A stretch of 64,000 bases of DNA from Rubeoparvulum massiliense. GTDB taxonomy: Bacteria > Bacillota > Bacilli > Rubeoparvulales > Rubeoparvulaceae. The stretch's first letter is position 1; each line of letters starts with the position of its first letter. The notes beneath the pieces were generated by a model. The model did no database searches. It worked only from the letters and a program-made list of their open reading frames with translations, and had not been told where the DNA came from. A program made the translations under genes and the position numbers. The stretch is taken from positions 592,957 through 656,956 of the forward strand of contig NZ_CVPE01000006.1 of assembly GCF_001049895.1 (NCBI RefSeq), read 5' to 3'. Below, in pieces: positions 2,304-61,279 of this stretch.

Positions 2304-3880
2304 CTTTCAATTCCTCGTAGTTACGATACAAACGTTGCAGGTCAAAGTACAACCGAAGCAGGGGTCGAGTTTCAATTCCTCATAGTTACGATACAAACTG
2401 GTGATTGATTTTGTTACAGGTGTATCAGCCAGTGGTTTCAATTCCTCATAGTTACGATACAAACGTGTATCAAGTCGACCAAGTGGTCCTCTCTTAACGA
2501 GTAGGTTTCAATTCCTCATAGTTACGATACAAACTTGTGAAAGCTCACACCCTTCTCGATGGCTCCTACCTGTTGTTTCAATTCCTCATAGTTACGATAC
2601 AAACTCCATATCACCGTATAATTCATCTTTAGACTCATGTGGTTTCAATTCCTCATAGTTACGATACAAACTGATCGGTTCCAGTGAGTGCAACGTTATT
2701 GGAGAAATTAGTTTCAATTCCTCATAGTTACGATACAAACTTGCAGGTATTTGACCTTTACTATCTGGATCATCCACGTTTCAATTCCTCATAGTTACGA
2801 TACAAACACTAGCTTTACGCCTACCAAGCAGAAGCATTTTTCGTTTCAATTCCTCATAGTTACGATACAAACGTTTCAAATACACCAACGCGACACCAGA
2901 AGGAATAAGTTTCAATTCCTCATAGTTACGATACAAACTGTCACCGAATACACGTACATTCTCGCCATTTGCATCGTTTCAATTCCTCATAGTTACGATA
3001 CAAACACTGTGGTGATATTTTCTCTTTATATTCCCATCTTGAGTTTCAATTCCTCATAGTTACGATACAAACTTCTAAATACCAACAAAGCGATTTCGAT
3101 AGGATACGAGTTTCAATTCCTCATAGTTACGATACAAACCGAAAAAAGCCAGCCTGAGCTTCCTCCATCATTCCAGTTTCAATTCCTCATAGTTACGATA
3201 CAAACGCAATATGAGTTCATTAGAATGATTGGTTATCCAGAAAAGTTTCAATTCCTCATAGTTACGATACAAACTTCCTAATCACTTCATTTGCAAGTTC
3301 TAAAATATCACTGTTTCAATTCCTCATAGTTACGATACAAACGCCAATGTCGAAGAGGTAGGGAAATTATCTTGGGAAGTTTCAATTCCTCATAGTTACG
3401 ATACAAACTTATCTGTGTAATCAGCTTTTGGCTTCAACTCACCGAGTTTCAATTCCTCATAGTTACGATACAAACGATGAGATCAATCACAATCTACCAG
3501 ATATGAGTGGGACAGAGTTTCAATTCCTCATAGTTACGATACAAACCCAGATACAAAAGTCCTCAAAGACGCGGATGGAAATAGTTTCAATTCCTCATAG
3601 TTACGATACAAACATCTAAGATTCGTAAGCTTAGAGTTGGTGATCGTAGGTTTCAATTCCTCATAGTTACGATACAAACAGGGAACATACTACGTTGATA
3701 GCGACAATCACAGCGGTTTCAATTCCTCATAGTTACGATACAAACGGGGGCCAGCAAGTTTCACAACGTATGCTACGCGTATATGTTTCAATTCCTCATA
3801 GTTACGATACAAACGAGGTTGAACGTCTGCAAGGCGGTGGCCGCGATGAGGTTTCAATTCCTCATAGTTACGATACAAAC
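2304..3880 (-). CRISPR. CRISPR array 1 (24 repeats, 23 spacers)
   Basis: Twenty-four 30-nt repeats separated by spacers of about 35–41 nt. On the transcribed (minus) strand the repeat begins GTTTGTATCG and ends GGAATTGAAAC, so processing would leave the usual ATTGAAAC 5' handle. The repeat at 2304–2333 has two changes (first base, and TCGTAG for TCATAG on the plus strand). A degenerate terminal repeat marks the trailer end, so the leader is at the high-coordinate side. All other repeats appear identical. Spacers look unique. Array 2 (12570–14003) has the same repeat, so one Cas6 probably serves both arrays and both effector types. Confidence 0.98.
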
Positions 3881-4255: not shown

Positions 4256-5089
4256 TTATTCATCATGACTTTTATCTATTTCAAATCGTCCATAACCCAC
4301 TGCTGTTTTGGCCCCTGCACCGATATATTGAAATGCATCTACCATCCATTTTAAAACTTGATCGATATCTGCTAAACTCTCCTTCCCTAGACAACGAGGA
4401 GCTACTATAAATATAAATGTCGTTCCTGGAGCAACTGTCAAAAATGGAATAGGAATAGGTGACATTGAATCTACAGGGGGATTTGATGGATCTTGGTAAT
4501 AAGAATTATAATGCGGTGTCATAATATCCGCTTCTAAGGAAACTGGTTTACATGGTAAACCATCAAAGAAGATCACACTACCAACAGAACTAGTTAACTG
4601 ATCTGTGAACCCGAATATTCTATTGATACTAGCTGTAGAAGTTTCCGTGTAATTCTCCGCCCAAGCTCGTACAACTCCTTTAATCGATGAAGCTGGTAAG
4701 TAAGGTATTCCCAAAGTAGGATGCCACACAAAACCATTTTCAATCGGATTGGGGAGTCCTAATCCAGTTACGAAACGACCCATCGTTTTCATATGGATGT
4801 ATTTTGCATTTTTGGTAAGACTTAATTTCTTCATTCGCTCAATTGTGTCTTTAATCTTAGAAGATGAACCTGCTTTGCCATACTTATTACCTTCCATTGA
4901 AAAATTAGTAACCGTCTCAATCCATTTGATTTTTTGTTCTCCTAAAATCCATTCTTTATCATTAATACTCCACTTATTACAAAACTTATCAAACCATAAA
5001 CCAATATGACATTGATTAGGTGGGGTATTTTTAACACATATTTCATCCACTGCTTGAGCCTGATATAAAGGAATCTTCGAATTATTCAT
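4256..5089 (-). CDS. cmr6: Type III-B RAMP protein Cmr6
   Basis: RAMP-superfamily subunit that caps the backbone of the Cmr complex. The roughly 277-residue protein has the RAMP-type segment YLPASSIKGVVRAWAE in its middle and a Gly-rich C-terminal GAGAKTAVGYGRF, the usual Cmr6 ending. It is the last gene of the cmr1-2-3-4-5-6 run. Its ATG overlaps the end of cmr5 by 8 nt, with GGAG about 10 nt upstream; a GTG three codons earlier is possible but too close to that site. Array 1 and its leader follow about 190 bp downstream. Confidence 0.88.
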   Translation of the reverse strand: MNNSKIPLYQAQAVDEICVKNTPPNQCHIGLWFDKFCNKWSINDKEWILGEQKIKWIETVTNFSMEGNKYGKAGSSSKIKDTIERMKKLSLTKNAKYIHMKTMGRFVTGLGLPNPIENGFVWHPTLGIPYLPASSIKGVVRAWAENYTETSTASINRIFGFTDQLTSSVGSVIFFDGLPCKPVSLEADIMTPHYNSYYQDPSNPPVDSMSPIPIPFLTVAPGTTFIFIVAPRCLGKESLADIDQVLKWMVDAFQYIGAGAKTAVGYGRFEIDKSHDE

Positions 5090-5597
5090 GGGAATCACGC
5101 TCCGTTGATTCCTCTGGGTCCATCGCCTTTAAATATGTTATGGCTAATTTTTTATGCCACTCTAACCACTGTAATGCTTCGATTTGTGCTAATTGATAAT
5201 GACGTTGATCATGGCGAATGAGTGCCTGTAAGAGTTCTATCTCTTTATCATCTTCATACTCTTCTTTAGTTTGGTAATAAGGTGAGTACTCATTCTTTTC
5301 ACACAACCATTCTTCTAAATGACGATATAACAAATAATAGGGAGATTCTTTATTCAATTTTTCTTGCTCCGTGCTGGAATCTTGAGGCGAATTTTTGGAC
5401 GAACGCTTGGAAGCAGCTAAAAGTTGAGCTAATGCTTGTCCTAATCCATTCATCAAAATATTTGCAGGTAAACGCTCAACGTATTCGGCATATTCTTTCG
5501 CACAATAACGATATTTCGTTTGGATTTCTTCTATTTTAGTAAGCGAATGTCTTGACCGCTCTTGTTCCAATGATGACTTTGATTCATTCGACTTCAT
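5082..5597 (-). CDS. cmr5: Type III-B small subunit Cmr5
   Basis: Small alpha-helical subunit that lines the Cmr complex beside the target RNA. The product is about 171 residues, charged and helical, with RYCAKEYAEYVERLPANILMNGLGQALAQ near the middle broken here as RLPANILMNGLG, a typical Cmr5 segment. An internal region rich in Ser, Lys and Glu makes it longer than many Cmr5 proteins. The ATG follows GGGGGAAGTG and lies within the end of cmr4 (14-nt overlap). An in-frame extension upstream is open but overlaps cmr4 and has no better start site. Confidence 0.85.
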   Translation of the reverse strand: MKSNESKSSLEQERSRHSLTKIEEIQTKYRYCAKEYAEYVERLPANILMNGLGQALAQLLAASKRSSKNSPQDSSTEQEKLNKESPYYLLYRHLEEWLCEKNEYSPYYQTKEEYEDDKEIELLQALIRHDQRHYQLAQIEALQWLEWHKKLAITYLKAMDPEESTERDSHE

Positions 5598-6417
5598 GTT
5601 CACTTCCCCCTTCCATAATCGAAGTGATACACCAACCTTGTCCAATCGTCTCATTTCCACCAACACGCACGTATAAATCATGTGCAAACATCTTTTTTAT
5701 CCGTGCCAACTGTTCCTTTTCATTCAACCGTGGAAGGATAAGAGTATAAAGTAATGTATCTGGTGGTAATGTTTCTTCATACCATAAGTTTTTACTCTCC
5801 TTCGTTTCCGCATCAAGTTGATTACGAGCCTGAACCGATAAACCGTATTTGGCAAAATAGCGAAACATATCATCATGCACAATCGTTAGCGATTGTACTA
5901 GATTGTCTCTAACCGATTCGTGCTGAATTAATTTTCCCAATTCGCTAGCGATAGCTTGTATTTCACTTTTCTTTTGAATTGCACGAAAAGAAAACTCTTC
6001 CAAAAACAAACTTTCTTCTTCTATTGCTACATAAGCTTCATCATCCTGTGGATCTGGGATGAAAAAACGACTGGAGGAACCCATCATTTGAATATCCCTT
6101 TGCCATCTTCTTAGTATGTATGGACATGTAACCCAGCGAAAATGTCCCGTTAACGACCGAACGGGAAGCAAAAGAAGACGACCATCTGTCACAGCTACTG
6201 CTCCAGCAAAGTCTGGCATACCAAAAACTTCATCTTTAGATTCCATTTTCTGTTGTTCCGCTTTATCACGTAGCGCTCCTTTAAGACTAGAACCGACAAT
6301 GACAGGATAATCTGTAACCGCTTCACGGGCTACAGGTAAATCTACAACCCCTGCTGTTTGACCACTACCTGCATGGATGGACGTTTCTGCTAATAAGCCA
6401 ATCATAAGACCATTCAT
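5584..6417 (-). CDS. cmr4: Type III-B backbone RAMP protein Cmr4
   Basis: Cmr4 forms the repeated backbone of the complex and cleaves target RNA. The roughly 277-residue product begins with the family signature LLAETSIHAGSG, followed by LPVAREAVTDYPVIVGSSLKG, split here as LPVAREA and VGSSLKGALRD. It ends with VGGNETIGQGW, the Gly-rich loop typical of Cmr4. The start is an ATGA overlap with the cmr3 stop. The catalytic Asp of Cmr4 sits in the loop after the first helix in known structures, but I cannot place it with certainty here. Confidence 0.92.
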   Translation of the reverse strand: MNGLMIGLLAETSIHAGSGQTAGVVDLPVAREAVTDYPVIVGSSLKGALRDKAEQQKMESKDEVFGMPDFAGAVAVTDGRLLLLPVRSLTGHFRWVTCPYILRRWQRDIQMMGSSSRFFIPDPQDDEAYVAIEEESLFLEEFSFRAIQKKSEIQAIASELGKLIQHESVRDNLVQSLTIVHDDMFRYFAKYGLSVQARNQLDAETKESKNLWYEETLPPDTLLYTLILPRLNEKEQLARIKKMFAHDLYVRVGGNETIGQGWCITSIMEGGSEHEVE

Positions 6418-7532
6418 TGATTTTCCTCTCCTTCTTGCCAAACTCCAATAACGATTTGTCCCATACCGTATTCTGTCATTTCGCCAATACACTGACCATG
6501 TAATTGTTTAATGCTTGAATACTCATTTTTTTTCGCTTTAAAAAACCATGTACTACCAGCTGGAATCAGAGGGAGCAAGGGACGAGGACAGTGATTAACC
6601 ATATCCCAACCACCCATTTGTTGCATTTTTCCAGTGCAAGCGGAGACACATTCACCGGGAACTTCACTTGGACCATTCTGAATCACGTCATAGATATTAT
6701 CTCTGCTACCAAAATAACCGGGAGTAATCAATGTTACCGTAAAATAGATATACTCTGGATCTTGCTTTAATTTAGGTATCGCTGGGAATGACTCCGAAAC
6801 ATGAGACACACTTACATGAGCCATACGCCCTTCTCCTCCAAGTGGTAAAGCATCCGTCTCTTGTAAATGCCACGCTTCTGGAATTCCTCCAACTTCTACT
6901 TCGATCTGCAACCCTTGTTTTGGTCGAATATGTGTGGTGGTATATAAGTGCTGATCTTCCGCCGTTCTCGTCTTTCGATCGCGCCTAATTCCTACATGAA
7001 GCTCCGTGTTCCATAAATCATCTGTCACATAAATTAGACTAGGTTTTTTACCAGCTAACAACTTTTCCATCTCTCGCCAAGGTAACCAGCCGTCAATGTT
7101 TTTAGCCCCTTCAACATGTTCTTGTGGTTCAGGAAGATACACACTTCCTAAATCACATTCAACCAACGTTTCACTAGGAATCAGTCGGGTCAATTGCCAT
7201 TTTTTATTTTCAGCACTATACTTTCCAATAAGCGTCAGCGGAATGGGGAACAAACGCTCTTGATTAAAACGTAAATAAGGGCCCCGTAACTTAAGATCCC
7301 CTAGATGTTCATATGTACCAAGCTTCTCAGGCCAATGCGCTTGTTTTTGTGGAGTCCACCCCTGCCTCAACGCTAAAGCTGTCCGAATCGCTCCTTGCAT
7401 CGTGCTCATATATGGAGGAAAATATCCTGTTGGTTGAGCCATCCCCCCTTCACCTTGACGAAAGGGTGTACCATCACGAAAGAAAAGAGTGTCTAATGCT
7501 TGGAATGTCCAAAGTTTATACTCTTGCTTCAA
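6414..7532 (-). CDS. cmr3: Type III-B RAMP protein Cmr3
   Basis: Cmr3 pairs with Cmr2 and holds the 5' handle of the crRNA. The roughly 372-residue product starts with FQALDTLFFRDGTPF, the characteristic Cmr3 N-terminus. It ends with EMTEYGMGQIVIGVW, the Gly-containing RAMP loop. The start is a TTG that overlaps the cmr2 stop as TTGA, with AAAGGAGAAG about 8 nt upstream. The reading frame stays open farther upstream inside cmr2, but that part does not look like Cmr3. Confidence 0.9.
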   Translation of the reverse strand: MKQEYKLWTFQALDTLFFRDGTPFRQGEGGMAQPTGYFPPYMSTMQGAIRTALALRQGWTPQKQAHWPEKLGTYEHLGDLKLRGPYLRFNQERLFPIPLTLIGKYSAENKKWQLTRLIPSETLVECDLGSVYLPEPQEHVEGAKNIDGWLPWREMEKLLAGKKPSLIYVTDDLWNTELHVGIRRDRKTRTAEDQHLYTTTHIRPKQGLQIEVEVGGIPEAWHLQETDALPLGGEGRMAHVSVSHVSESFPAIPKLKQDPEYIYFTVTLITPGYFGSRDNIYDVIQNGPSEVPGECVSACTGKMQQMGGWDMVNHCPRPLLPLIPAGSTWFFKAKKNEYSSIKQLHGQCIGEMTEYGMGQIVIGVWQEGEENQ

Positions 7533-9508
7533 GAATTCTCTTCTCCTTTCTTGGCCAAAAAGCGAACTAATAATGCGCCGTCCGAACGAAAATCGCCTTC
7601 CGCATAATGTAATGTGTGATCCTGATCCCGCCACGAAGAGAGACAAAGATTAACGAGAGTTTCTATCCGCTTCTCAACTTGATGATTCATTTCGAATTCA
7701 TTTTCCCTTGATTCTGATTTCAAATATTCTGCAACGAGTAATTTACGAAAAATCTCTTTGTTTTCTTCTGGATTACCTGAAAATCTGCCAATTCTATCAT
7801 AATGTTCACGTAGTTTATAGAGAAAGCTACTAGATGCAACATCTTCTCCCTTACCTTTAAACTCCAACGCTAACTGTTCGATAATTGTTGCATCCCCTGA
7901 ACCTTGAATGATTTGCCATGGGGCTGCCCACTCAAGAACAGGACCACCTGTCTTCCACACACCAATGGCTAAACTATCCCTTCCTTTCGCATCCTTTGCT
8001 ACATCATCTAATAAATAATGAGCATACTTCAATACTCCTTGAAGCGGAGCTTTATAATGTGTATAAACAATCGCTGCTGAAATCGTTGCCTGATTATGAC
8101 TATGACTAGAATGAGCTTGGAAGGCCTCCTTATACTTCATATGTAAGTTATTAGCCACAGATAATGCTCCATCCAGGGTCAGAAGAGCTAATACGTCATC
8201 ACCACCTGCATAAACAGTTTCACCATGGCACTTAACAATACCCTCCAAATCCTTTGTGAAACTTGCCAATGAGTGACTTACCCAACGCCCAGGGTCAGAC
8301 ATATTAGTCGACTGTAAGAGATTACCTAATTGATCACCATCCATGACTAAGAGTGCATAGAAGGGACTTGGTTTTCGATAGGAATTTTCTATATTGCTTA
8401 GTAATTCGATTAGCTCTTCCACCTGACAAGAATCCACATCGAATCCTTTTTCTTGCCAAAAACGTTCATTGCTTAAGTTGGAGGAGTAAAAAAAAGGCCC
8501 TTCTAAGTGTTTAAATTCTGAAACGAGCCGTTCTTCATCATACGACTTGTTGATTTCATCATCATGAATTCCTATAGCTGAAAGCTTAATTTTCATCACA
8601 TGTTTCATAAAAGCTATTGCCTTATCATTATGTGTTTTCAACACTTCCTCACGCCACGGACGGATAGCTAAATCAGCGGTTGATGGAAAGCGAACTGCTT
8701 CAGTGGGTAATTTCCAACCTAATGCTTCTTCTGCTACCAGAGGATAAAAGCGTTTCACTAAAGCGATTGCACTTAATTTTTCTCCTTCTCTTAACTCGTA
8801 TGTAGTTGAATCTCTTTTCGACGTTGATTTGCGTAGTGAAGTCCAAAATTGCTTTTGCTTGCTACCATTACGATCTCTTTCTGTATGTATATAGCCGGAT
8901 ATTTCTTGCATATTACCAAAGAGCATGCACTTATCGCCTGGCTCTTCGGTTGGTATATAGCTTCGCCAATTTTTGCGGCGATTTAGCAAATAATTCTGTT
9001 CTCCTATCACCCAACTTATGTCCCAATAGAAGGGGGAGTCATCCATTTCATAGCTTCCGATTTGCCGATTCCAAATTTCTTTTGTGTTTTTTCCTTGTGG
9101 CGCCACTTCCGCTATAAAGTGATCCCATACAGCGTCTGCCACCCTCTTCCATGCTTGTTTTACTGCACGTACACAATGAACCTTAGGATCAAAATCAATT
9201 GGAACTTCTGCCTTGAATCGATTTGGGAGTGAACCGATATGGGGACCTTTCTCGATGCTTTTTTTCGTCTTAGTTTGATAAATTGCTAAAAGCAAAGGAT
9301 CATTAATCGAAGTTTCAATATTATGTTCATTCTCTCCCTGAACATAAGGGAAAATAATGCGACCACCATTCTGGATGATACTCACCATCGCGTGGCCTGA
9401 CAAAAAAGAGAGCAGAAAAGAGCTCGCTAATAGATCTCTAGTCTTTCGCGATTGTGTAATAAAGTCTTGTACAGGGCCAATCGAAAAATGCAATATTTTT
9501 TTACTCAC
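7529..9508 (-). CDS. cmr2: Type III-B Cas10 subunit Cmr2, without HD domain
   Basis: Cas10-type large subunit of the Cmr complex, which in active systems makes cyclic oligoadenylate on target RNA binding. The roughly 659-residue protein starts directly with the Cmr2 D1-type segment SIGPVQDFITQSRKTRDLL. Longer Cmr2 proteins have an HD nuclease domain before this; none is visible here. Palm motifs are present: LLVMDGDQLG near residue 390 and YAGGDDVLALL (GGDD about 435–438). The usual zinc-binding Cys cluster is not evident; one Cys remains in KCMLFGN. The GTG start overlaps the cmr1 stop by 8 nt and follows GGGTGGAAAAGG. The cyclase looks intact, and DNA cleavage by an HD site is unlikely. Confidence 0.93.
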   Translation of the reverse strand: MSKKILHFSIGPVQDFITQSRKTRDLLASSFLLSFLSGHAMVSIIQNGGRIIFPYVQGENEHNIETSINDPLLLAIYQTKTKKSIEKGPHIGSLPNRFKAEVPIDFDPKVHCVRAVKQAWKRVADAVWDHFIAEVAPQGKNTKEIWNRQIGSYEMDDSPFYWDISWVIGEQNYLLNRRKNWRSYIPTEEPGDKCMLFGNMQEISGYIHTERDRNGSKQKQFWTSLRKSTSKRDSTTYELREGEKLSAIALVKRFYPLVAEEALGWKLPTEAVRFPSTADLAIRPWREEVLKTHNDKAIAFMKHVMKIKLSAIGIHDDEINKSYDEERLVSEFKHLEGPFFYSSNLSNERFWQEKGFDVDSCQVEELIELLSNIENSYRKPSPFYALLVMDGDQLGNLLQSTNMSDPGRWVSHSLASFTKDLEGIVKCHGETVYAGGDDVLALLTLDGALSVANNLHMKYKEAFQAHSSHSHNQATISAAIVYTHYKAPLQGVLKYAHYLLDDVAKDAKGRDSLAIGVWKTGGPVLEWAAPWQIIQGSGDATIIEQLALEFKGKGEDVASSSFLYKLREHYDRIGRFSGNPEENKEIFRKLLVAEYLKSESRENEFEMNHQVEKRIETLVNLCLSSWRDQDHTLHYAEGDFRSDGALLVRFLAKKGEENS

Positions 9509-10649
9509 ACCTTTTCCACCCCTTATCTCCATAATCATTTAAATAAATGCAAAACTTATTCAGTGCATCGTGCATGCTAAAATCGTGCTTAAACATAGTC
9601 TTAGTCTCTTTTTTGCCTTCCTCCTGTTCTGCAATAGCTATTTTTTTGGGTGGTGTTAAGACAGCAATGAAGGGATAATACTTTCCTTTTATCTCAATGA
9701 TACGAATCCAGACTGGGGAAGCATAGCGCTCGCCATCAAAGGGAGTATATACTATTTCTTTAGGCTTTGATGACTTTGACTTTTTCATTTTTTCTTTAAT
9801 TTTTAACGGCATTCCTAATGCAAATCTATGATCTTTATTTTTTTTACGAAAATCTTGGATTACTTTAGCTACATCATCTAATGCTTCGTTCCAGCTATTA
9901 TATTTTTGTTCTCTACAATAAAAAGATGTTTTATGATTAATAATAGAATGCTCACATATATCTTGCCATTCCCCAAACCATGATTTAATCGAATTTAATG
10001 ATGCCAAAAAGTGATTCTTCCATGCCTTTATTGAACTCTCATTATTAGCAATTGGTAACTGTTTTAATAATTGGTTAGCGGATGAATCGTTAGTAAAACC
10101 CCATGACTTTAATGCTAATGTACCGAACCCACGACGAGAACGCGAACCTAGCCCACCTAAGTGTCCTAATAACCAGATGCTAGAGAGTAAAGCCTTCCAT
10201 TCTTCTATTGGGTCACATACTTTATTAGAGGTACGCCTGAAAAAATATACAGTAACAGTACGATTAGGTACTAAACATAGTCGAGGAACATAATCTTTTT
10301 TCATAGGAGCAGTCTCAACTTTAGTTTTCAAAAAAAAAGCAAAATACGTTGGTTTATGATATTTAGAGTTATCTTGCTTATTAGATACTACATTCATCTG
10401 ATGGTGTGATTCCATCCGCATTAAAAATCGAGATTGTCCTTCCCCCTGCTTTGCCCCACCAAAAATCCAGCTCTCCTTAGATATGCTACTGCTCGATGAA
10501 ACCGGATGATTATACGAAGGATCAATAGATCGATACCAATAACGAAGGGCACCCTTTAATGAAGCGAGACGAAATTCTGCTTTTTCTTGATCAGCACCCG
10601 ATAAAAACATGGGTGTAATGATTTGAAATGTCACTTTTAATTCTTCCAT
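9501..10649 (-). CDS. cmr1: Type III-B RAMP protein Cmr1
   Basis: First gene of the cmr run; Cmr1 binds near the 3' end of the crRNA in the complex. The roughly 382-residue product has the signatures TPMFLSGAD and LKGALRYWYR near the N-terminus, IFGG around residue 65, and the Gly/Arg loop GGLGSRSRRGFG about a third of the way in. All are typical of Cmr1. I chose the second of two ATGs two codons apart because the first lies against the GTGG that would serve as ribosome-binding site. Base composition is more AT-rich than in cmr3 to cmr5, with many A-runs. Confidence 0.9.
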   Translation of the reverse strand: MEELKVTFQIITPMFLSGADQEKAEFRLASLKGALRYWYRSIDPSYNHPVSSSSSISKESWIFGGAKQGEGQSRFLMRMESHHQMNVVSNKQDNSKYHKPTYFAFFLKTKVETAPMKKDYVPRLCLVPNRTVTVYFFRRTSNKVCDPIEEWKALLSSIWLLGHLGGLGSRSRRGFGTLALKSWGFTNDSSANQLLKQLPIANNESSIKAWKNHFLASLNSIKSWFGEWQDICEHSIINHKTSFYCREQKYNSWNEALDDVAKVIQDFRKKNKDHRFALGMPLKIKEKMKKSKSSKPKEIVYTPFDGERYASPVWIRIIEIKGKYYPFIAVLTPPKKIAIAEQEEGKKETKTMFKHDFSMHDALNKFCIYLNDYGDKGWKRCE

Positions 10650-10756
10650 ATGCATCCACGTCCTATTATCATTTTCTAATAACCCTTTTGTGACCTACAT
10701 CACGCCGATCAACTTTATTATCACATGGTATTTTTTATCAATAGAATTCATCCTCC

Positions 10757-11734
10757 CTATTTAGCATTTTTCCCCTCCTCTTCTTCCCTACTGATCTCCC
10801 TGAATTTACGTGCATATGCGAAGTGTGGAAATAGCATAGGATTATTAATTAACATCAATAATTGATTTAGTTGAAAGTTCAATGATAATAATGGATTGTT
10901 GTCTACCTTCAAATCGCTAAGTGTGTTCGTTAAATATAAATTTTCGTCAAATTTTAATTCAGGAGTTACTTTTGCCAAACGTTTCTTAGATTCTAAACCC
11001 TTCTCATATTCTAAACGTTCATTATCATCTTTAAAGTCATCGATTTTTCTTTCAGAAAAAAATTGTAGTTTTAATTTATCTTCTAATCCTTCCACACCAT
11101 TTAATTCATGTCCCCACCACGCCAACGATCGATTCTCATAGGGTATTTTCACTTCAAAGCGTTTACTTTCCCTTTCAGTAAGAATAATATCGAAATGTTT
11201 GACCAATTTTTCTAAAGACTGCTCTCCTACGTTAGATCTTAATGTGGCCAATATTCTAATTGGTCTTGTTTTTACTTGTGATTGATTTGTCAATCCAGAT
11301 ACATATCCATTCACCATACGTGTAATTCCTGAACGTTTTGGAATTAATTCATCTATGCTGTCTACCCAATCTTTGAGTTCTTCTATTGGCATACTATTAC
11401 TTTTGCATTCGATTACAATAGCAACTGCTTCAATTGGAATAAACTTTAATGTATTGTATTGGAATACATATGGGGTATACTGCTCATCAAATACTGCAAT
11501 ATCAACCTCCTTAGACACTTGACCCTCTGAATCAATAATCATCACACCTTGAGCCAACGAATATTTTTTTGGAATAATACTTTTGAAAAAATTCATCCAC
11601 ATTTCTTCACGGTAATTTCCTGTTAAGCCACCATGTTTAGAAGCAATCTCCATCTCTTGTATCATCATTTTATTCATAAAACTATAATTATCCATGATTC
11701 TCTTAAACACGTTTTTATTCTCCTGTTCTGTCAT
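10757..11734 (-). CDS. DUF6602-like putative PD-(D/E)xK nuclease, type III-B associated
   Basis: The 325-residue product resembles the DUF6602 group. A restriction-endonuclease-like core can be read: GNYREEMWMNFF (E43/E44), SKEVDIAVFD (D78) and IVIECKSN (E109-x-K111), in the order and spacing of a PD-(D/E)xK active site. No CARF-like or membrane segment is obvious, and the C-terminal third is helical and charged. The start has GAGAGGAG about 9 nt upstream. It lies 107 bp before cmr1 on the same strand, so it may be co-transcribed. Role as a defence effector is inference from position; the nuclease fold is inferred from motifs alone. Confidence 0.65.
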   Translation of the reverse strand: MTEQENKNVFKRIMDNYSFMNKMMIQEMEIASKHGGLTGNYREEMWMNFFKSIIPKKYSLAQGVMIIDSEGQVSKEVDIAVFDEQYTPYVFQYNTLKFIPIEAVAIVIECKSNSMPIEELKDWVDSIDELIPKRSGITRMVNGYVSGLTNQSQVKTRPIRILATLRSNVGEQSLEKLVKHFDIILTERESKRFEVKIPYENRSLAWWGHELNGVEGLEDKLKLQFFSERKIDDFKDDNERLEYEKGLESKKRLAKVTPELKFDENLYLTNTLSDLKVDNNPLLSLNFQLNQLLMLINNPMLFPHFAYARKFREISREEEEGKNAK

Positions 11735-12569: not shown

Positions 12570-14003
12570 TTTTCAATTCCTCATAGTTACGATACAAACT
12601 ACCAACAAAATGGATTTGGATTTCTCAATCCTCTTGGTTTCAATTCCTCATAGTTACGATACAAACTATACCGCATTAAAGGGTCGTTCTCAAATTTTGA
12701 TTCGTTTCAATTCCTCATAGTTACGATACAAACCTGGAAAAAGCATGGCATACGTCCATCGGTTTTCTAGTTTCAATTCCTCATAGTTACGATACAAACA
12801 GTTAGATCCTGCTTTCCGCTATACATCCGTCATTTGTTTCAATTCCTCATAGTTACGATACAAACGATTATAAAACCTTTATGAAACACGCAGCCACTGT
12901 TGGTTTCAATTCCTCATAGTTACGATACAAACCCTTATGCACGTCTATAATCGCATCTACAGGGTCAAATTTCAATTCCTCATAGTTACGATACAAACTT
13001 CGTACTCGTCTGGTACCCTAGCAAGAAGGCTCTCGTTTCAATTCCTCATAGTTACGATACAAACGGTGGCATCCAGGTTGAAGAAAAGAATCTAGCAAAC
13101 AAGTTTCAATTCCTCATAGTTACGATACAAACCCAAGGTCAGCTTCAAGTTGTTCGATATCTGGTTTCTGTTTCAATTCCTCATAGTTACGATACAAACG
13201 TCCGTCAGCAAGACCCTCAAACTTCAACGTGTCCTGTTTCAATTCCTCATAGTTACGATACAAACAACGAGAAAAGGAGCTGAGGAAACAGCTCCAGAAA
13301 AGGTTTCAATTCCTCATAGTTACGATACAAACTTTTGTTTACAGTCACCAATTGTCCCGTATGGATGTTTAGTTTCAATTCCTCATAGTTACGATACAAA
13401 CTCCGAAGTTCTCTGCAGATCCACAGGTCGCTATCGGTTTCAATTCCTCATAGTTACGATACAAACTCCTTCCTCGAGTGGTTGCAGTCGGAAGTTGAAA
13501 GAGTGTTTCAATTCCTCATAGTTACGATACAAACGCAGCGTCGCCACCCACGGTATCCGCGACCCGTTAAAGGGTTTCAATTCCTCATAGTTACGATACA
13601 AACGAGGACGAGTTGAGAGCCGACCGCCTGCGACAAATGTTTCAATTCCTCATAGTTACGATACAAACGGTTAACCAAAGGCTTGTTTACAAGAGATTTA
13701 AAAAGTTTCAATTCCTCATAGTTACGATACAAACGATCACAGCCCTCACCGAAGCAACCAAGCGGAACGGGTTTCAATTCCTCATAGTTACGATACAAAC
13801 ACATCTTGGAACAAACACATATCGAATGAAAGAAACGTTTCAATTCCTCATAGTTACGATACAAACGTCAACAACAGTTCCATATCGTACACCTAGAAAT
13901 TCAGCGTTTCAATTCCTCATAGTTACGATACAAACACGGGATTCGTTACCGATCCAATTAACCAAGGTGCCTGGTTTCAATTCCTCATAGTTACGATACA
14001 AAC
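12570..14003 (-). CRISPR. CRISPR array 2 (22 repeats, 21 spacers)
   Basis: Twenty-two 30-nt repeats with the same sequence as array 1 and spacers of about 35–39 nt. The terminal repeat at 12570–12599 differs in its first base, and the repeat at 12969–12998 also has a changed first base (A for G on the plus strand). The low-coordinate side is the trailer and transcription is on the minus strand. The spacer at 13266–13302 contains a 7-bp hairpin (GGAGCTG and CAGCTCC). No spacer is shared with array 1 as far as I can see by eye. Confidence 0.98.
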
Positions 14004-56057: not shown

Positions 56058-56594
56058 TTATTTTATCAAGAAATACATCAAGCTCATACCCAAAAGAAAA
56101 GGTATTCCCAAAGATGCGAAACGCCAATGTTTTCGTAGCGATGGATAAGCAAAATGAATTTCATGTATGATTTGGTGATCTAGATCTATATATAGAATAC
56201 CATTACAACGATAAAGTAAACTATAGATCAATAAATGATCTCGCAAGGATGTTGCTGTAAATGAGACGCGAGATCTGGCACGACGTTGTTTAATCACATA
56301 GAGTTCGCCCGCTTTTTCCGCCCATCCATCGATGGTCAAGCGTGTTGTAAACTGTCGACCATCATTGAGTTCAATGGTGATGGGCACCTGCTCCCGTCCT
56401 GAGAGTGGCTCATAACCATGCTGCTGTAAGATCTGGGCGAGGGGACGTGTTAATTGATCTTGATGTTGAATCGAGGGATGAGAAGGTAGCCTCCACCCAA
56501 ATTGAACTACCTTACGTAGAAACCACCATAACAGCCAACCTCCTCCCAGTAGGAGGAGCACAATAAAAATATAAAAATCCCCTGCAGGTAACAT
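56058..56594 (-). CDS. Unrecognised membrane protein, possible PD-(D/E)xK-like core
   Basis: About 178 residues with a membrane helix at each end (about 8–28 and 158–176) and a soluble middle. The middle reads [36 protein letters not shown], quoted here as [10 protein letters not shown] and ELYVIKQRR, then [12 protein letters not shown] and GILYIDL. The pattern D-x(n)-VIK-x-R followed by a helix and a strand is reminiscent of nuclease-fold proteins, but a full set of catalytic residues is not clear. It lies between tlyA and argR on the same strand. GTG or ATG start after GAGGTGAT. It has two, not four, helices, so it does not match the OLE-associated protein OapA as I remember it. Confidence 0.65.
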
Positions 56595-56648
56595 CACATC
56601 ACCTCAGGGGATTATATTCGACTCAGCACATGACGTTTCCTTTTTCAA

Positions 56649-57467
56649 TTAGCTCAATTCTTGATGAGCTTCCATGACCTCCTGCTGAATACGTGTAGGC
56701 TGTAGAAGATTAGTACCTTGCTCCTTTTCCGCCTTTTCTAACAGGAGGAGAAACTCAATATTCCCATCGCCTCCTGTAATCGGCGAATAGGTGAGCTCCA
56801 ATGGTGAAAAACTCTCCTGTAATGCCATTTGAATCACATGCTCTAAGACCTCTTGATGAATACTGGCATCACGGACTATCCCTTTGTTTCCCACCTGTTC
56901 TTTCCCTGCTTCGAATTGTGGCTTCACCAACGCCACCACCCTCGCTCCCACCGATAGTAGGGGATAGAGTGCTGGTAAGATTTTATTCAAGGAGATAAAG
57001 GAGACATCAATGCTCGCAAAGGTTGGAGTTGGTCCCACAAGCTCTTCCTGTGTTAAATAACGGAAATTGGTTCGCTCCATTACATTAACACGGGGATCTT
57101 GACGTAGCTTCCAGCTTAACTGATTATAGCCAACATCAATAGCATAGACATAGGCTGCTCCATTTTGCAGGGCACAATCGGTAAAACCGCCTGTAGAGGC
57201 TCCGATATCCAGCATCACTTGGTTCGTTAGATCCAGTGCAAACTCCTGGATTGCCCGTTCCAGCTTTAATCCACCGCGCCCTACATAGGGATGAGGCTTA
57301 CCCTTCACCTCGATCCCCGCATCGATTAATACTTTCGTGCCAGCCTTATCCACGCGCTCGCCAGCCACAAAGACTAAACCAGCCATAATCGCTTTCTTTG
57401 CCGTTTCTCGACTATCAAAATGGCCTTGCTGTACCAATAGAACATCTAGACGTTCCTTCATCGCCAT
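56649..57467 (-). CDS. tlyA: TlyA-family rRNA methyltransferase
   Basis: Equal to yqxC in Bacillus. 272 residues: an N-terminal S4 RNA-binding domain (RLDVLLVQQGHFDSRETAKKAI, core DSRETAKKAI) and an FtsJ-like methyltransferase domain with DIGASTGGFTDCAL and IDVGYNQLSWKLR (core DVGYNQL). Probable 2'-O-methylation of rRNA, known for the mycobacterial member. The start overlaps the dxs stop (TAATG). Confidence 0.93.
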   Translation of the reverse strand: MAMKERLDVLLVQQGHFDSRETAKKAIMAGLVFVAGERVDKAGTKVLIDAGIEVKGKPHPYVGRGGLKLERAIQEFALDLTNQVMLDIGASTGGFTDCALQNGAAYVYAIDVGYNQLSWKLRQDPRVNVMERTNFRYLTQEELVGPTPTFASIDVSFISLNKILPALYPLLSVGARVVALVKPQFEAGKEQVGNKGIVRDASIHQEVLEHVIQMALQESFSPLELTYSPITGGDGNIEFLLLLEKAEKEQGTNLLQPTRIQQEVMEAHQELS

Positions 57468-59350
57468 TACTGCTGCATCCTCTTTCTTGAAGTAAGCTGA
57501 GTGGCTGCTTCCACAATTTTTTCCGGTGTAAGACCAATCTCTTCCCGTAATAGCTCCACACTACCATGTTCAATAAATTGATCCGGGATCCCAAAGGTTT
57601 CAATCTCCATACAACGATGATGTTCACTATAAAACTCGCGAACCGCACTTCCAAATCCACCGGCGAGAACACCTTCCTCCACGGTGATAATGGGAAGCTG
57701 CTCATCAGCTAGTTGCATGAGCATGGCTTCGTCTAATGGTTTGATAAACCGCGCATTGATAATCCGTGCGGAGATCCCTTGTTCCGCGAGACGATCCGCT
57801 GCCTGTTCGGCGAGAGGGAGCATATTGCCCATGGTTAGGATGGCTAGATCATGACCAGCACGTAACACCTCGAAGGTGCCGATAGGAATCTGCTTAAATT
57901 CATGATCATAAGGAACCCCTCGACCACCACCACGTGGATAGCGGACAGCGATGGGTCCATCATTGTATTGGATCGCTGTATATAGCATATTACGTAGTTC
58001 ATTCTCATCCTTTGGCATCATCACCACAAGATTGGGGAGGATCCGTAGGAAAGCAATATCAAACACACCATGATGGGTCTCTCCGTCAGCACCAACAAGT
58101 CCAGCACGATCAATGGCGAAGACCACATTAAGATTCTGGCGAGTAATGTCATGGATCACCTGATCATAGGCCCGCTGTAAAAAGGTTGAGTAGATGGCAC
58201 AGACAGGCTTTAATCCCTGTGTTGCGATGCCCCCAGCCATGGTCACTGCATGCTGCTCAGCAATCCCCACATCGAAGAAGCGATCAGGATACTTAGCAGC
58301 AAAGCCCTTCAATCCTGAACCATCAGTCATCGCTGGTGTAATGGCAATGATCCGATTATCATGTTTCGCCAATTGCATCAGAGTATCACCAAACACCTTG
58401 GAATAACTAGGCGGACCTTCTTTTTTGATGATTTCGCCTGATTCGATTTTATAAGGACCACTGCCATGGAAAGTATAGGCATCATCCTCAGCAGGCTTAT
58501 AGCCTTTCCCCTTCTTAGTGATCACATGGATGAGTGTTGGTCCTTCGATCTCTTTCGCATGCTCCAATGTATCGATGAGGTCTTCAAGACTGTGTCCATC
58601 AATGGGCCCTAGATAGGTATAGCCCAATTCTTCAAAGAGCACCCCATCAACAACGAGATACTTTAAGCTATCCTTTAATTTATCTAGCGTATTGTAGATG
58701 GAATCACCAATAGCAGGAATATTGCCGATAAGGTTGATTACCTCTTTTTTAACCTTATTATACGGCTTTCCAGTTCGAAGTTTGTTGAGATACTGATGAA
58801 GAGCCCCAACATTAGGCGCAATGGACATTTCATTATCATTAAGGATCACAATCATATTCTTCTTATCATGACCGATATGGTTGAGAGCCTCAAAAGCCAT
58901 CCCACCAGTCATTGCACCATCACCAATCACAGGGACAATATGATACTTCTCCCCTTTACAGTCACGGGCAATGGCCATACCCATTGCTGCCGAAAGTGAG
59001 GTGCTGCTGTGGCCTGCTTCCCAGACGTCATGGATGCTCTCACGTCGCTTTGGGAATCCACTTAACCCGTGGAACTGCCGTAAGGTATCAAATTGATCCT
59101 GCCGACCAGTTAAGATTTTATGTACGTAGGATTGATGTCCCACATCCCAAATCAGTTTATCCTTCGGGCTTTGAAAAACATAATGCATGGCGAGAGTAAG
59201 TTCAACCACGCCCAAATTAGGTGCAAGGTGTCCTCCTGTCTTCGATAGCTTAACGATTAGAAAGTCCCTAATCTCATGAGCGAGTACTTTCAACTCGTCC
59301 ACATTTAGTTTTTTCACATCATCGGGTGTATGAATACGTTCCAGATACAA
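57467..59350 (-). CDS. dxs: 1-deoxy-D-xylulose-5-phosphate synthase
   Basis: First step of the MEP isoprenoid pathway. 627 residues: ThDP motif [17 protein letters not shown] (core GDGAMTGG), [29 protein letters not shown] (core GIAEQHAVT) and [14 protein letters not shown] (core GADGETHHG). TTG start after GAGGGG. Unlike Bacillus, it is separated from ispA by the OLE RNA region. Confidence 0.97.
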
Positions 59351-59463
59351 CGTGACCCCTCACTTTCTGGATATTAAGACACGAAAAGCGATTAATAGGA
59401 TATATGTATAGTTTATTGTAATATAGATCAAGGACAGTTACCACTCAAGTAAGCCAAATAAAA

Positions 59464-59484
59464 AGTCGCTCATAACGAGCGACT
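59464..59484 (-). terminator. Terminator after the OLE RNA
   Basis: Arms AGTCGCTC and GAGCGACT around five bases, followed on the minus strand by TTTTTATTT. It starts 10 nt after the closing stem of the RNA. Confidence 0.85.
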
Positions 59485-59489
59485 CTTTA

Positions 59490-60100
59490 TGACCATTAGG
59501 GTGCTAACCTTATGAGTAAACATTGTGGCTTGAGGTCCAGTAGGTTTTCCCAAGCAAGTACCTGAACGTTGCCATTCAGGCCGTTTCCATTTAAACCTGC
59601 CTTAATGTCGTCACCATACATTAGACTGGATTACCACTTAGTCCACACTCTAATCCCCATAAGGTCTCGAGAAGAGCAGTCTAGGAGATTTCCTCAACAA
59701 TCAGCGCCTATCCCCTAGCCTCTTTTGCAAGAAAGATTTCATATAGCACCGAATACTGATTTCTGGCCAAAAAACCAATATCTGAACCCTATAATCCCCT
59801 CTTCCCCACGCAAGGCAGGCTACGCTACACACAATCCCATTATAGGTCGCATGCAGGTTCATACCCCAAGCCATAACAATACGTTCGATGACGTGCTGCC
59901 ACGCACTTGGGCCTCCGCGGAAATGGGGTCAACGCCCACATGCCTTTGTGGATCGCCCCAAATCCTTAACTTCCAGCATAAGCCCCCGACTGGGCGTCGA
60001 AAGCCAACACCAGAAACTTCATCGATGTGCCCTTTAGCGGATTTTTAGCCCCGCCTTCAGGGTAGGCCGATTGACTAGAATACTGCTACACCCTAATGTA
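59490..60100 (-). ncRNA. ole: OLE RNA (ornate, large, extremophilic)
   Basis: A stretch of about 610 nt without a convincing gene lies between ispA and dxs, the place and size of OLE RNA in Bacillus halodurans and other extremophilic Firmicutes. The two ends pair perfectly: CATTAGGGTG at 60098–60089 with CACCCTAATG at 59503–59494 (minus strand), giving a 605-nt closed domain. Clear hairpins inside include CCTGAA/TTCAGG (59561–59580) and CCACA/TGTGG (59936–59951). GC content is higher than in usual intergenic DNA. OLE RNA acts at the membrane with OapA, B and C in stress resistance; the oapA gene is normally adjacent but is not seen here. The call rests on context, size and fold; I recall parts of the sequence as OLE-like but cannot align it. 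Confidence 0.85.
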
Positions 60101-60143
60101 GCTAGGAGTAATATATCATATTTATATGCAAATATCAAATTGT

Positions 60144-61031
60144 TCATGAATCCCGCTTTTCCATATAGTCGATAAACTGCCAGAGTAGTCCATCCTCTTT
60201 TCCTAGCTGACGCAGGGCATAACGTGCTTGTTCTAAGGTCTCGTGCAATTTTTGATGTGCACCATTAAGCCCAAGCAGACTCACATAGGTAGATTTTTGC
60301 AATTTTTCATCTCCACCCGTTTTCTTCCCTAATTTGGCTTCATCGCCAATCACATCTAGAATGTCATCTTGAATTTGGAAGGCCAAGCCAAGGGATTCAG
60401 CATATTGGGTATAATGAAGAAGCTCCTCTTTATTTGACCCAGCAATCACTGCCCCTGACCAGACTGCGAAAGTGATCAGATCTCCTGTTTTATGACGATG
60501 CACCAATTCTAATTCCTCTAATGAGATGGAGTGTTCCTCTGCTTCCAGATCAAGAACCTGACCAGCCACCATGCCACGGGAACCAGAGCGAATGGCCAGC
60601 TCTGCTAAGAGAGCTACCTTTGTTTCTGGTGTTAAATCTGCTTTTGCCGTGATCCCAAATGCTTCTGTTAATAAGGCATCCCCTGCCAAAATGGCTAACG
60701 CCTCACCAAATACCATATGATTGGTCAGTTTACCACGTCGGTACTCATCGTCGTCCATAGCGGGAAGATCATCATGAATCAAGGAGTATGTATGTAAGAA
60801 TTCTAAGGCGCACGCTGCATCCAGGGCACCTGCTATTTCCATCCCAGTGTCCTCAACGGTGGCGAGCAAAAGGATGGGACGAATCCGCTTACCCCCAGCA
60901 AAAAGGGAGTACTCCATGGCTGAGCGAAGAGAGGAGGGTGGAATTTCCATTTGATTCATCAAGATCTGCATATGCTCTTCAACAAGTAGCTTCTTCTCTT
61001 TTAAATAAGCTTGAAACTGATGTGCGTTCAC
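60144..61031 (-). CDS. ispA: Geranyl/farnesyl diphosphate synthase
   Basis: Prenyltransferase making short-chain isoprenoid diphosphates. About 295 residues: GGKRIRPILLLA, first Asp motif HDDLPAMDDDEYRRG (core DDLPAMDDD), KTGDLITFAVWSG and second Asp motif IQDDILDVIGD. GTG start 7 nt after GGAGG, just past the xseB stop. With dxs it supplies precursors for quinones and undecaprenyl lipids. Confidence 0.94.
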   Translation of the reverse strand: MNAHQFQAYLKEKKLLVEEHMQILMNQMEIPPSSLRSAMEYSLFAGGKRIRPILLLATVEDTGMEIAGALDAACALEFLHTYSLIHDDLPAMDDDEYRRGKLTNHMVFGEALAILAGDALLTEAFGITAKADLTPETKVALLAELAIRSGSRGMVAGQVLDLEAEEHSISLEELELVHRHKTGDLITFAVWSGAVIAGSNKEELLHYTQYAESLGLAFQIQDDILDVIGDEAKLGKKTGGDEKLQKSTYVSLLGLNGAHQKLHETLEQARYALRQLGKEDGLLWQFIDYMEKRDS

Positions 61032-61033
61032 AC

Positions 61034-61279
61034 CTATTCCTCCTGCAATGTAAATGGTTTTGCAGTCACTTGACCATTCTCTTCCATAAGTAGGTCGATC
61101 TGTTTTTCTACATGCTGTAATTTGCCTTGACAATATTTTGAAAGCTCCATCCCTCGCTGAAAGAGCTGAATTGACTCTTCAAGGGGAACTTCACCAGCTT
61201 CCAGCTGTTGAACGATCTCCTCTAGTTGAGCCATGGCTTCTTCAAAGCTCATCTCTTCTGATTCATTCACCTTTTTCAC
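61034..61279 (-). CDS. xseB: Exodeoxyribonuclease VII small subunit
   Basis: 81 residues with the family motif SFEEAMAQLEEIVQQLEAG (core FEEAMAQLEEIV) and GEVPLEESIQLFQRGMEL (core LEESIQLFQRG). It lies between xseA and ispA, 5 nt after the xseA stop. Confidence 0.96.
   Translation of the reverse strand: MKKVNESEEMSFEEAMAQLEEIVQQLEAGEVPLEESIQLFQRGMELSKYCQGKLQHVEKQIDLLMEENGQVTAKPFTLQEE

Follow-up and report, generated by a model that had tools for sequence, protein, structure and literature searches.

The OLE RNA gene of Rubeoparvulum massiliense stands apart from oapA, with a divergent OapA probably supplied in trans

Rubeoparvulum massiliense very probably has a functional OLE RNP in which the RNA, encoded at the ispA-dxs site, forms a transcription unit of its own and a distant locus provides OapA in trans. 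Of the conserved bacterial RNAs that have no known biochemical function, OLE ranks with the largest. OapA is regarded as the indispensable partner of this RNA, and the argument for the pair has come partly from the adjacency of the two genes. The sequence studied here is a 64,000-nt window of the 2.84 Mb R. massiliense genome (NZ_CVPE01000006.1, positions 592,957-656,956), and coordinates given without a contig or locus prefix are positions in this window.

The Rfam OLE model (RF01071) matched the window at 59485-60107 on the minus strand over its full length (cmscan, not truncated, model positions 1-616 of 616), with a score of 503.6 bits (E-value 8.9e-145, gathering score 50). This covariance search bears out the earlier note, which had read the region as an OLE gene, and adds the strand, which that note did not give. 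The R. massiliense genome holds this single copy, no second one being found in a whole-genome search. Upstream lies ispA (farnesyl diphosphate synthase, 60144-61043, minus strand; NF045485, 379.7 bits, above cut-off), and directly downstream dxs (57467-59350, minus strand; TIGR00204, 929.5 bits), i.e., the RNA occupies the location in the isoprenoid operon by which OLE is recognized. What is lacking at this site, as in 7 of the 85 OLE-bearing genomes surveyed below, is an oapA gene immediately downstream of the RNA: dxs comes next, with no oapA between, just as had been claimed from the letters alone. Such a position of oapA is common, not universal, and hence non-defining, according to two published accounts (PMC12265935, PMC12054373). 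Among open reading frames of at least 60 aa, the ispA-dxs gap contains just one, of 107 aa, which runs antisense within OLE.

The structural elements of the RNA are retained as well. A closing helix joins a 5' strand at 60089-60098 (minus strand, CACCCTAATG) to a perfectly complementary 3' strand at 59494-59503 (minus strand, CATTAGGGTG), so that the 10-bp end pairing described previously is real and encloses exactly 605 nt (59494-60098); a 10-bp match between the flanks occurred in 0.4% of shuffles. The enclosed domain is also GC-richer, as stated before (0.488 vs. 0.442 for the whole window, and 0.22 and 0.36 for the two flanking gaps). Within it, the palindrome CATCGATG (60020-60027, minus strand, P4a region) is an octamer kept in the other OLE RNAs compared, with few exceptions; OapA sites in H. 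halodurans were mapped to the P2 and P4a palindromes (PMC12265935), which makes this octamer a candidate for the OapA site of P4a. The hairpin CCUGAAUGGCAACGUUCAGG (59561-59580, minus strand) keeps its pairing intact in the cmscan alignment and, from its position, is the putative tip of P13, the stem-loop of OLE bound by OapB (PMC12054373). A UUGGCC loop at 59765-59770 (minus strand) carries the palindromic GGCC of the kissing loop L9.3, which forms bridge B3 of the OLE dimer (PMC12286853). Judged by its sequence, this OLE copy is genuine and intact, an ordinary member of the family, and membership in the family predicts an abundant, stable, membrane-associated OLE RNA of ~600 nt in R. massiliense.

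Several other features of the window were recorded. CRISPR genes of type III-B (Cmr), one of them for a 325-aa NucC-type nuclease, occupy 4256-11734 (minus strand). On either side lies a CRISPR array (2369-3880 and 12637-14003, plus strand); the two arrays share their repeat, and the first is adjoined by a gene for Cas8b (type I-B). Between tlyA-like and argR genes, a 179-aa protein with hydrophobic ends (56058-56597, minus strand) had no match in Pfam or NCBIfam.

The partner proteins of OLE are encoded elsewhere in the genome. A profile built from 17 linked OapAs of related genomes, i.e., those whose gene lies directly downstream of OLE, has one match in R. massiliense, even at E-values up to 10: a gene at G000:C6:37470-38048, 614 kb from OLE (E-value 3.5e-50, profile positions 9-199 of 208). 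The predicted protein has 225 aa and contains DVVGD, an instance of the DxxxD motif that is distinctive of OapA (PMC11332333). With this single distant homologue, an OLE without OapA is rejected, and the implication drawn earlier from the bare locus, that the RNA might do without its neighbour protein, finds no support; what R. massiliense lacks is linkage rather than the partner. The genome-wide search proposed in the earlier note in fact returned homologues of all three associated proteins, with OapB matching PDB 7k9b ("OLE-associated protein B") over residues 12-107 (87 bits, E-value 8e-24) and OapC/YbxF scoring 113.4 bits against NF010125 (cut-off 113), YlxQ being a separate gene. No structured RNA was found near the distant oapA.

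The surroundings of the distant oapA yielded two observations. In R. massiliense the gene is convergent with a TerC-family gene (L042:8701-9372 and 9468-10145), and deletion of ole-oapA in H. halodurans is suppressed by mutations in ykoY and in a Mn riboswitch (PMC10898510). As a functional link the TerC-oapA pairing is weak, the genes being convergent and the pairing seen in R. massiliense alone. In 6 of the 7 genomes with unlinked oapA, the region includes a gene with tandem CBS domains and ylbF-ylbG-like genes (L043, L044, L137-L140); in MpfA, CBS domains accompany the CNNM domain. A split MpfA made of the CBS gene and oapA was considered and retained as no more than a lead: the ylbF-ylbG region is generally conserved, the neighbours lie at distances of 130-800 bp or more, and beside the R. 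massiliense oapA the CBS-domain gene is absent.

To place the R. massiliense arrangement, we surveyed 399 genomes of the class (Bacilli). OLE was above the cut-off in 85 of them and OapA was found in 86, with one gene per genome (in G336, as two adjacent fragments of one oapA). Every genome with OLE above the cut-off also had OapA (85/85), and the sole OapA without OLE (G261) sits so close to a contig end (about 110 nt) that an adjoining OLE would fall beyond it. The two genes are adjacent in 78 of the 85 genomes and unlinked in seven: R. massiliense (G000), G019, G033, G136, G147, G168 and G179, among whose hosts are Bacillaceae bacterium GB_MAG13_007, Ammoniphilus resinae DSM 24738, Ammoniphilus sp. 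YIM 78166 and Aneurinibacillus tyrosinisolvens LL-002. Outside the class, OLE adjoins oapA at all 20 OapA loci checked. Unlinked cases of oapA are implied in the literature, of which the available parts do not describe a coherent divergent clade of them such as the one presented below.

In the order to which G179 belongs, both genes occur in 5 of 15 genomes, always unlinked, and both are missing from the other 10 (Fisher p-value 3e-4, shared descent not corrected for); the co-loss may reflect few events. Since the RNA and OapA are kept or lost together here though unlinked, adjacency offers no explanation, and a functional bond between them is supported. The unlinked yet co-retained genes thus provide an argument for the OLE/OapA pair that linkage does not explain, and A. 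resinae DSM 24738 and A. tyrosinisolvens LL-002 make the unlinked arrangement testable.

Two surveyed genomes deserve separate mention. G107, a genome without OapA, has a weak OLE-like match (22.9 bits, L145, G107:C1:9598-9671), possibly a decayed OLE gene. In G033, which carries OLE and OapA and a candidate for OapC, no OapB-type KOW protein was found at E-values up to 1. The long OLE-dxs gap of this genome (L019:2131-2860) contains repeats of the type GCCGTCGATGAACGCCCGC, and no remnant of oapA was seen in a six-frame translation of this gap.

The transcription signals around OLE are consistent with an RNA expressed on its own. Upstream of the gene, a predicted promoter (TTGATA-17-TATATT with a TG extended -10; 60110-60138, minus strand) would place the transcription start near 60103, although the number of such sites in the region is by itself not above chance. 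Across the class, 75% of 64 OLE genes have an upstream promoter-type site scoring at least 9/12 (vs. 10% of shuffles), usually TATAAT after TG. Because sites of this type recur in most of these 64 genes with almost constant spacing to the start of the RNA, OLE probably has its own promoter generally. At the other end, the strong terminator announced previously was recovered within 2 bases of its noted range, as an intrinsic hairpin followed by U's directly 3' of OLE (about 59462-59486, minus strand; fold -14.5 kcal/mol, z -5.0). A consensus terminator scan missed this hairpin, probably because A-U pairs lengthen its stem into the T run. Past the terminator, a possible dxs promoter (59420-59448, minus strand) is weak (9/12) and not above chance.

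Terminator-like hairpins follow OLE within about 25 nt in 7 of 7 unlinked genomes, and within 30 nt in 3 of 57 linked ones (Fisher p-value 2e-7, with the unlinked cases largely one clade). Given that the seven unlinked cases belong to one clade, this association and that of the protein tails described below are not independent events. A terminator at this place fits an RNA that is no longer co-transcribed with oapA.

The loss of the neighbour gene, together with the handful of changes private to this RNA, could be taken to mean that the R. massiliense OLE locus is decaying or pseudogenised. Across 251 conserved columns, defined from linked genomes, the R. massiliense RNA has 7 deviations, the RNAs of the unlinked genomes 2-7 and those of the linked genomes 0-17, so the changes lie within the linked range; the match is full-length at 503.6 bits, and promoter, terminator and helices are retained. 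Decay is thus very improbable. Only two changes are near-fixed among the unlinked RNAs (93 U to C and 137 A to G). Both are in P5, one on each strand, and have the look of a compensatory pair. To judge by this alignment, the OLE RNAs of the unlinked genomes are ordinary, and OapA diverged without a matching change in the RNA.

The protein is where the unlinked genomes stand out. The seven unlinked OapAs form one clade (support 100/100) on a long branch, and the R. massiliense member is 32-40% identical to linked OapAs. All seven have DVVGD. Basic residues (K+R) are on average more numerous in their N-tails than in those of linked Bacilli OapAs (7.6 vs. 2.2) and less numerous in their C-tails (3.4 vs. 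9.1), where the N-tail of G019 was counted as 0 from a late start codon and has 8 K+R in the longer frame. Three residues are changed in 7 of 7 unlinked OapAs, namely E68 (to L, I, V or M), C99 (to F) and T150 (to I or V), and R90 is lost in 6 of 7. E68, C99 and T150 are conserved in 58 linked Bacilli OapAs and largely also in 29 OapAs of other classes, the latter being the best-scoring ones and not a random sample; the invariance of these residues is outside the published OapA definition. With near-invariant residues lost, the function of the unlinked OapAs could have changed. For the four transmembrane helices expected of an OapA, hydropathy gives the R. massiliense protein a handful of broad hydrophobic blocks, similar to those of its linked counterparts. 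The fold assignment is by sequence alone, and an AlphaFold model built from only 4 sequences had a pLDDT of 46, too low for use.

The loss of residues that are invariant across the phylum, and a weak match to the CNNM Pfam family in one unlinked member, would also be expected if the distant protein were a CNNM-type transporter relative, non-functional as OapA, with OLE working without OapA. We consider this very unlikely: the OapA profile match has an E-value of 3.5e-50, OapA co-occurs strictly with OLE, and the DxxxD motif is kept, which is described as absent from CNNM domains (PMC11332333). R. massiliense moreover encodes one MpfA-like CNNM protein as a separate gene (C6:505258, open frame of 434 aa). 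From homology and co-retention, we infer instead that the divergent OapA binds OLE RNA and takes it to the membrane.

How an OapA of this type came to serve a Bacilli RNA can be read in two ways. In an OapA tree that includes the 29 OapAs of other classes, a branch (100/99.7) separates the linked Bacilli OapAs from the unlinked clade, and placement of this clade beside the RNA's nearest neighbour (p-AU 0.003) or inside the main 14-row Bacilli clade (p-AU 0.024) is rejected. In the RNA tree, OLE RNAs of other classes are on one side of a branch (96/86), and those of the unlinked genomes fall among Bacilli. Both results, along with basic N-tails in some OapAs of other classes, are in line with a xenologous replacement, in which the linked oapA was lost, its place was taken by a divergent oapA whose descent lies outside the linked Bacilli OapAs, and the Bacilli-type RNA was kept. 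However, a sister position of the unlinked clade to the linked Bacilli OapAs as a whole is nearly as good (lnL 1.07 lower, p-AU 0.39), the long branch of the clade may be drawn outward, a grouping of the unlinked genomes with other classes in the RNA tree is not rejected either (p-AU 0.18), and the GC content of the R. massiliense oapA is unremarkable (0.425 vs. 0.45 in its surroundings). Replacement is a real possibility that falls somewhat short of probable.

The same long branch, with about 1 to 1.6 changes per site, is what would be seen if the native oapA had moved once in an ancestor and evolved fast, long-branch attraction pushing the clade to the base. Relocation is also favoured by the presence of exactly one OapA per genome, old and new never together, and by clade-unique substitutions at positions conserved in both other OapA groups. 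It has to contend with the rejection, under the model used, of a placement within the larger Bacilli clade, with the span of the unlinked clade over two orders (the lineages of G000 and of G179), and with ispA and dxs trees that, poorly resolved, do not show the unlinked genomes as one clade. We would put relocation just short of probable. That two Bacilli lineages exchanged their OLE membrane protein for an outside OapA at an unrelated locus, the RNA staying unchanged, is offered as a tentative proposal only.

Under the reading we prefer, that of an RNP assembled in trans, the OLE RNA would have stayed at the ispA-dxs site with its own promoter and its own terminator, while oapA either left the OLE locus or was replaced by a copy originating outside the linked Bacilli lineage. 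OapA would have diverged afterwards, its basic tail now being N-terminal rather than C-terminal, and would still bind OLE RNA and anchor it at the membrane as an essential subunit, as in H. halodurans. The divergent clade then amounts to a natural mutational scan, in which DxxxD, K154 and K158 were kept and E68, C99, T150 and the C-terminal basic tail were lost, and which points to parts of OapA that are free to change while the RNA stays the same. A protein swap, if true, would be a natural exchange within a large RNA-protein machine and would reveal the parts of OapA on which the RNA depends.

Compared with known systems, the R. massiliense OLE is like that of H. halodurans in its full length, ispA-dxs position, helices, P4a palindrome, P13 hairpin and kissing-loop palindrome, and differs in having no oapA before dxs and a strong terminator after the RNA. 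OapB (a KOW protein) and OapC (YbxF) are both encoded in the ribosomal protein region, with nothing notable relative to the known ones. CNNM magnesium transporters of the MpfA/CorC type, to which OapA is distantly homologous, have CBS domains (PMC11332333) and about twice the length of OapA, and provide no OapA substitute in R. massiliense. The unlinked OapA itself shares with known OapA homology over ~190 residues, DxxxD, K154 and K158, and occurrence as one copy per OLE genome; it departs from it in its distant gene, ~35% identity to linked OapAs, N-terminal basic tail and replaced E68, C99 and T150.
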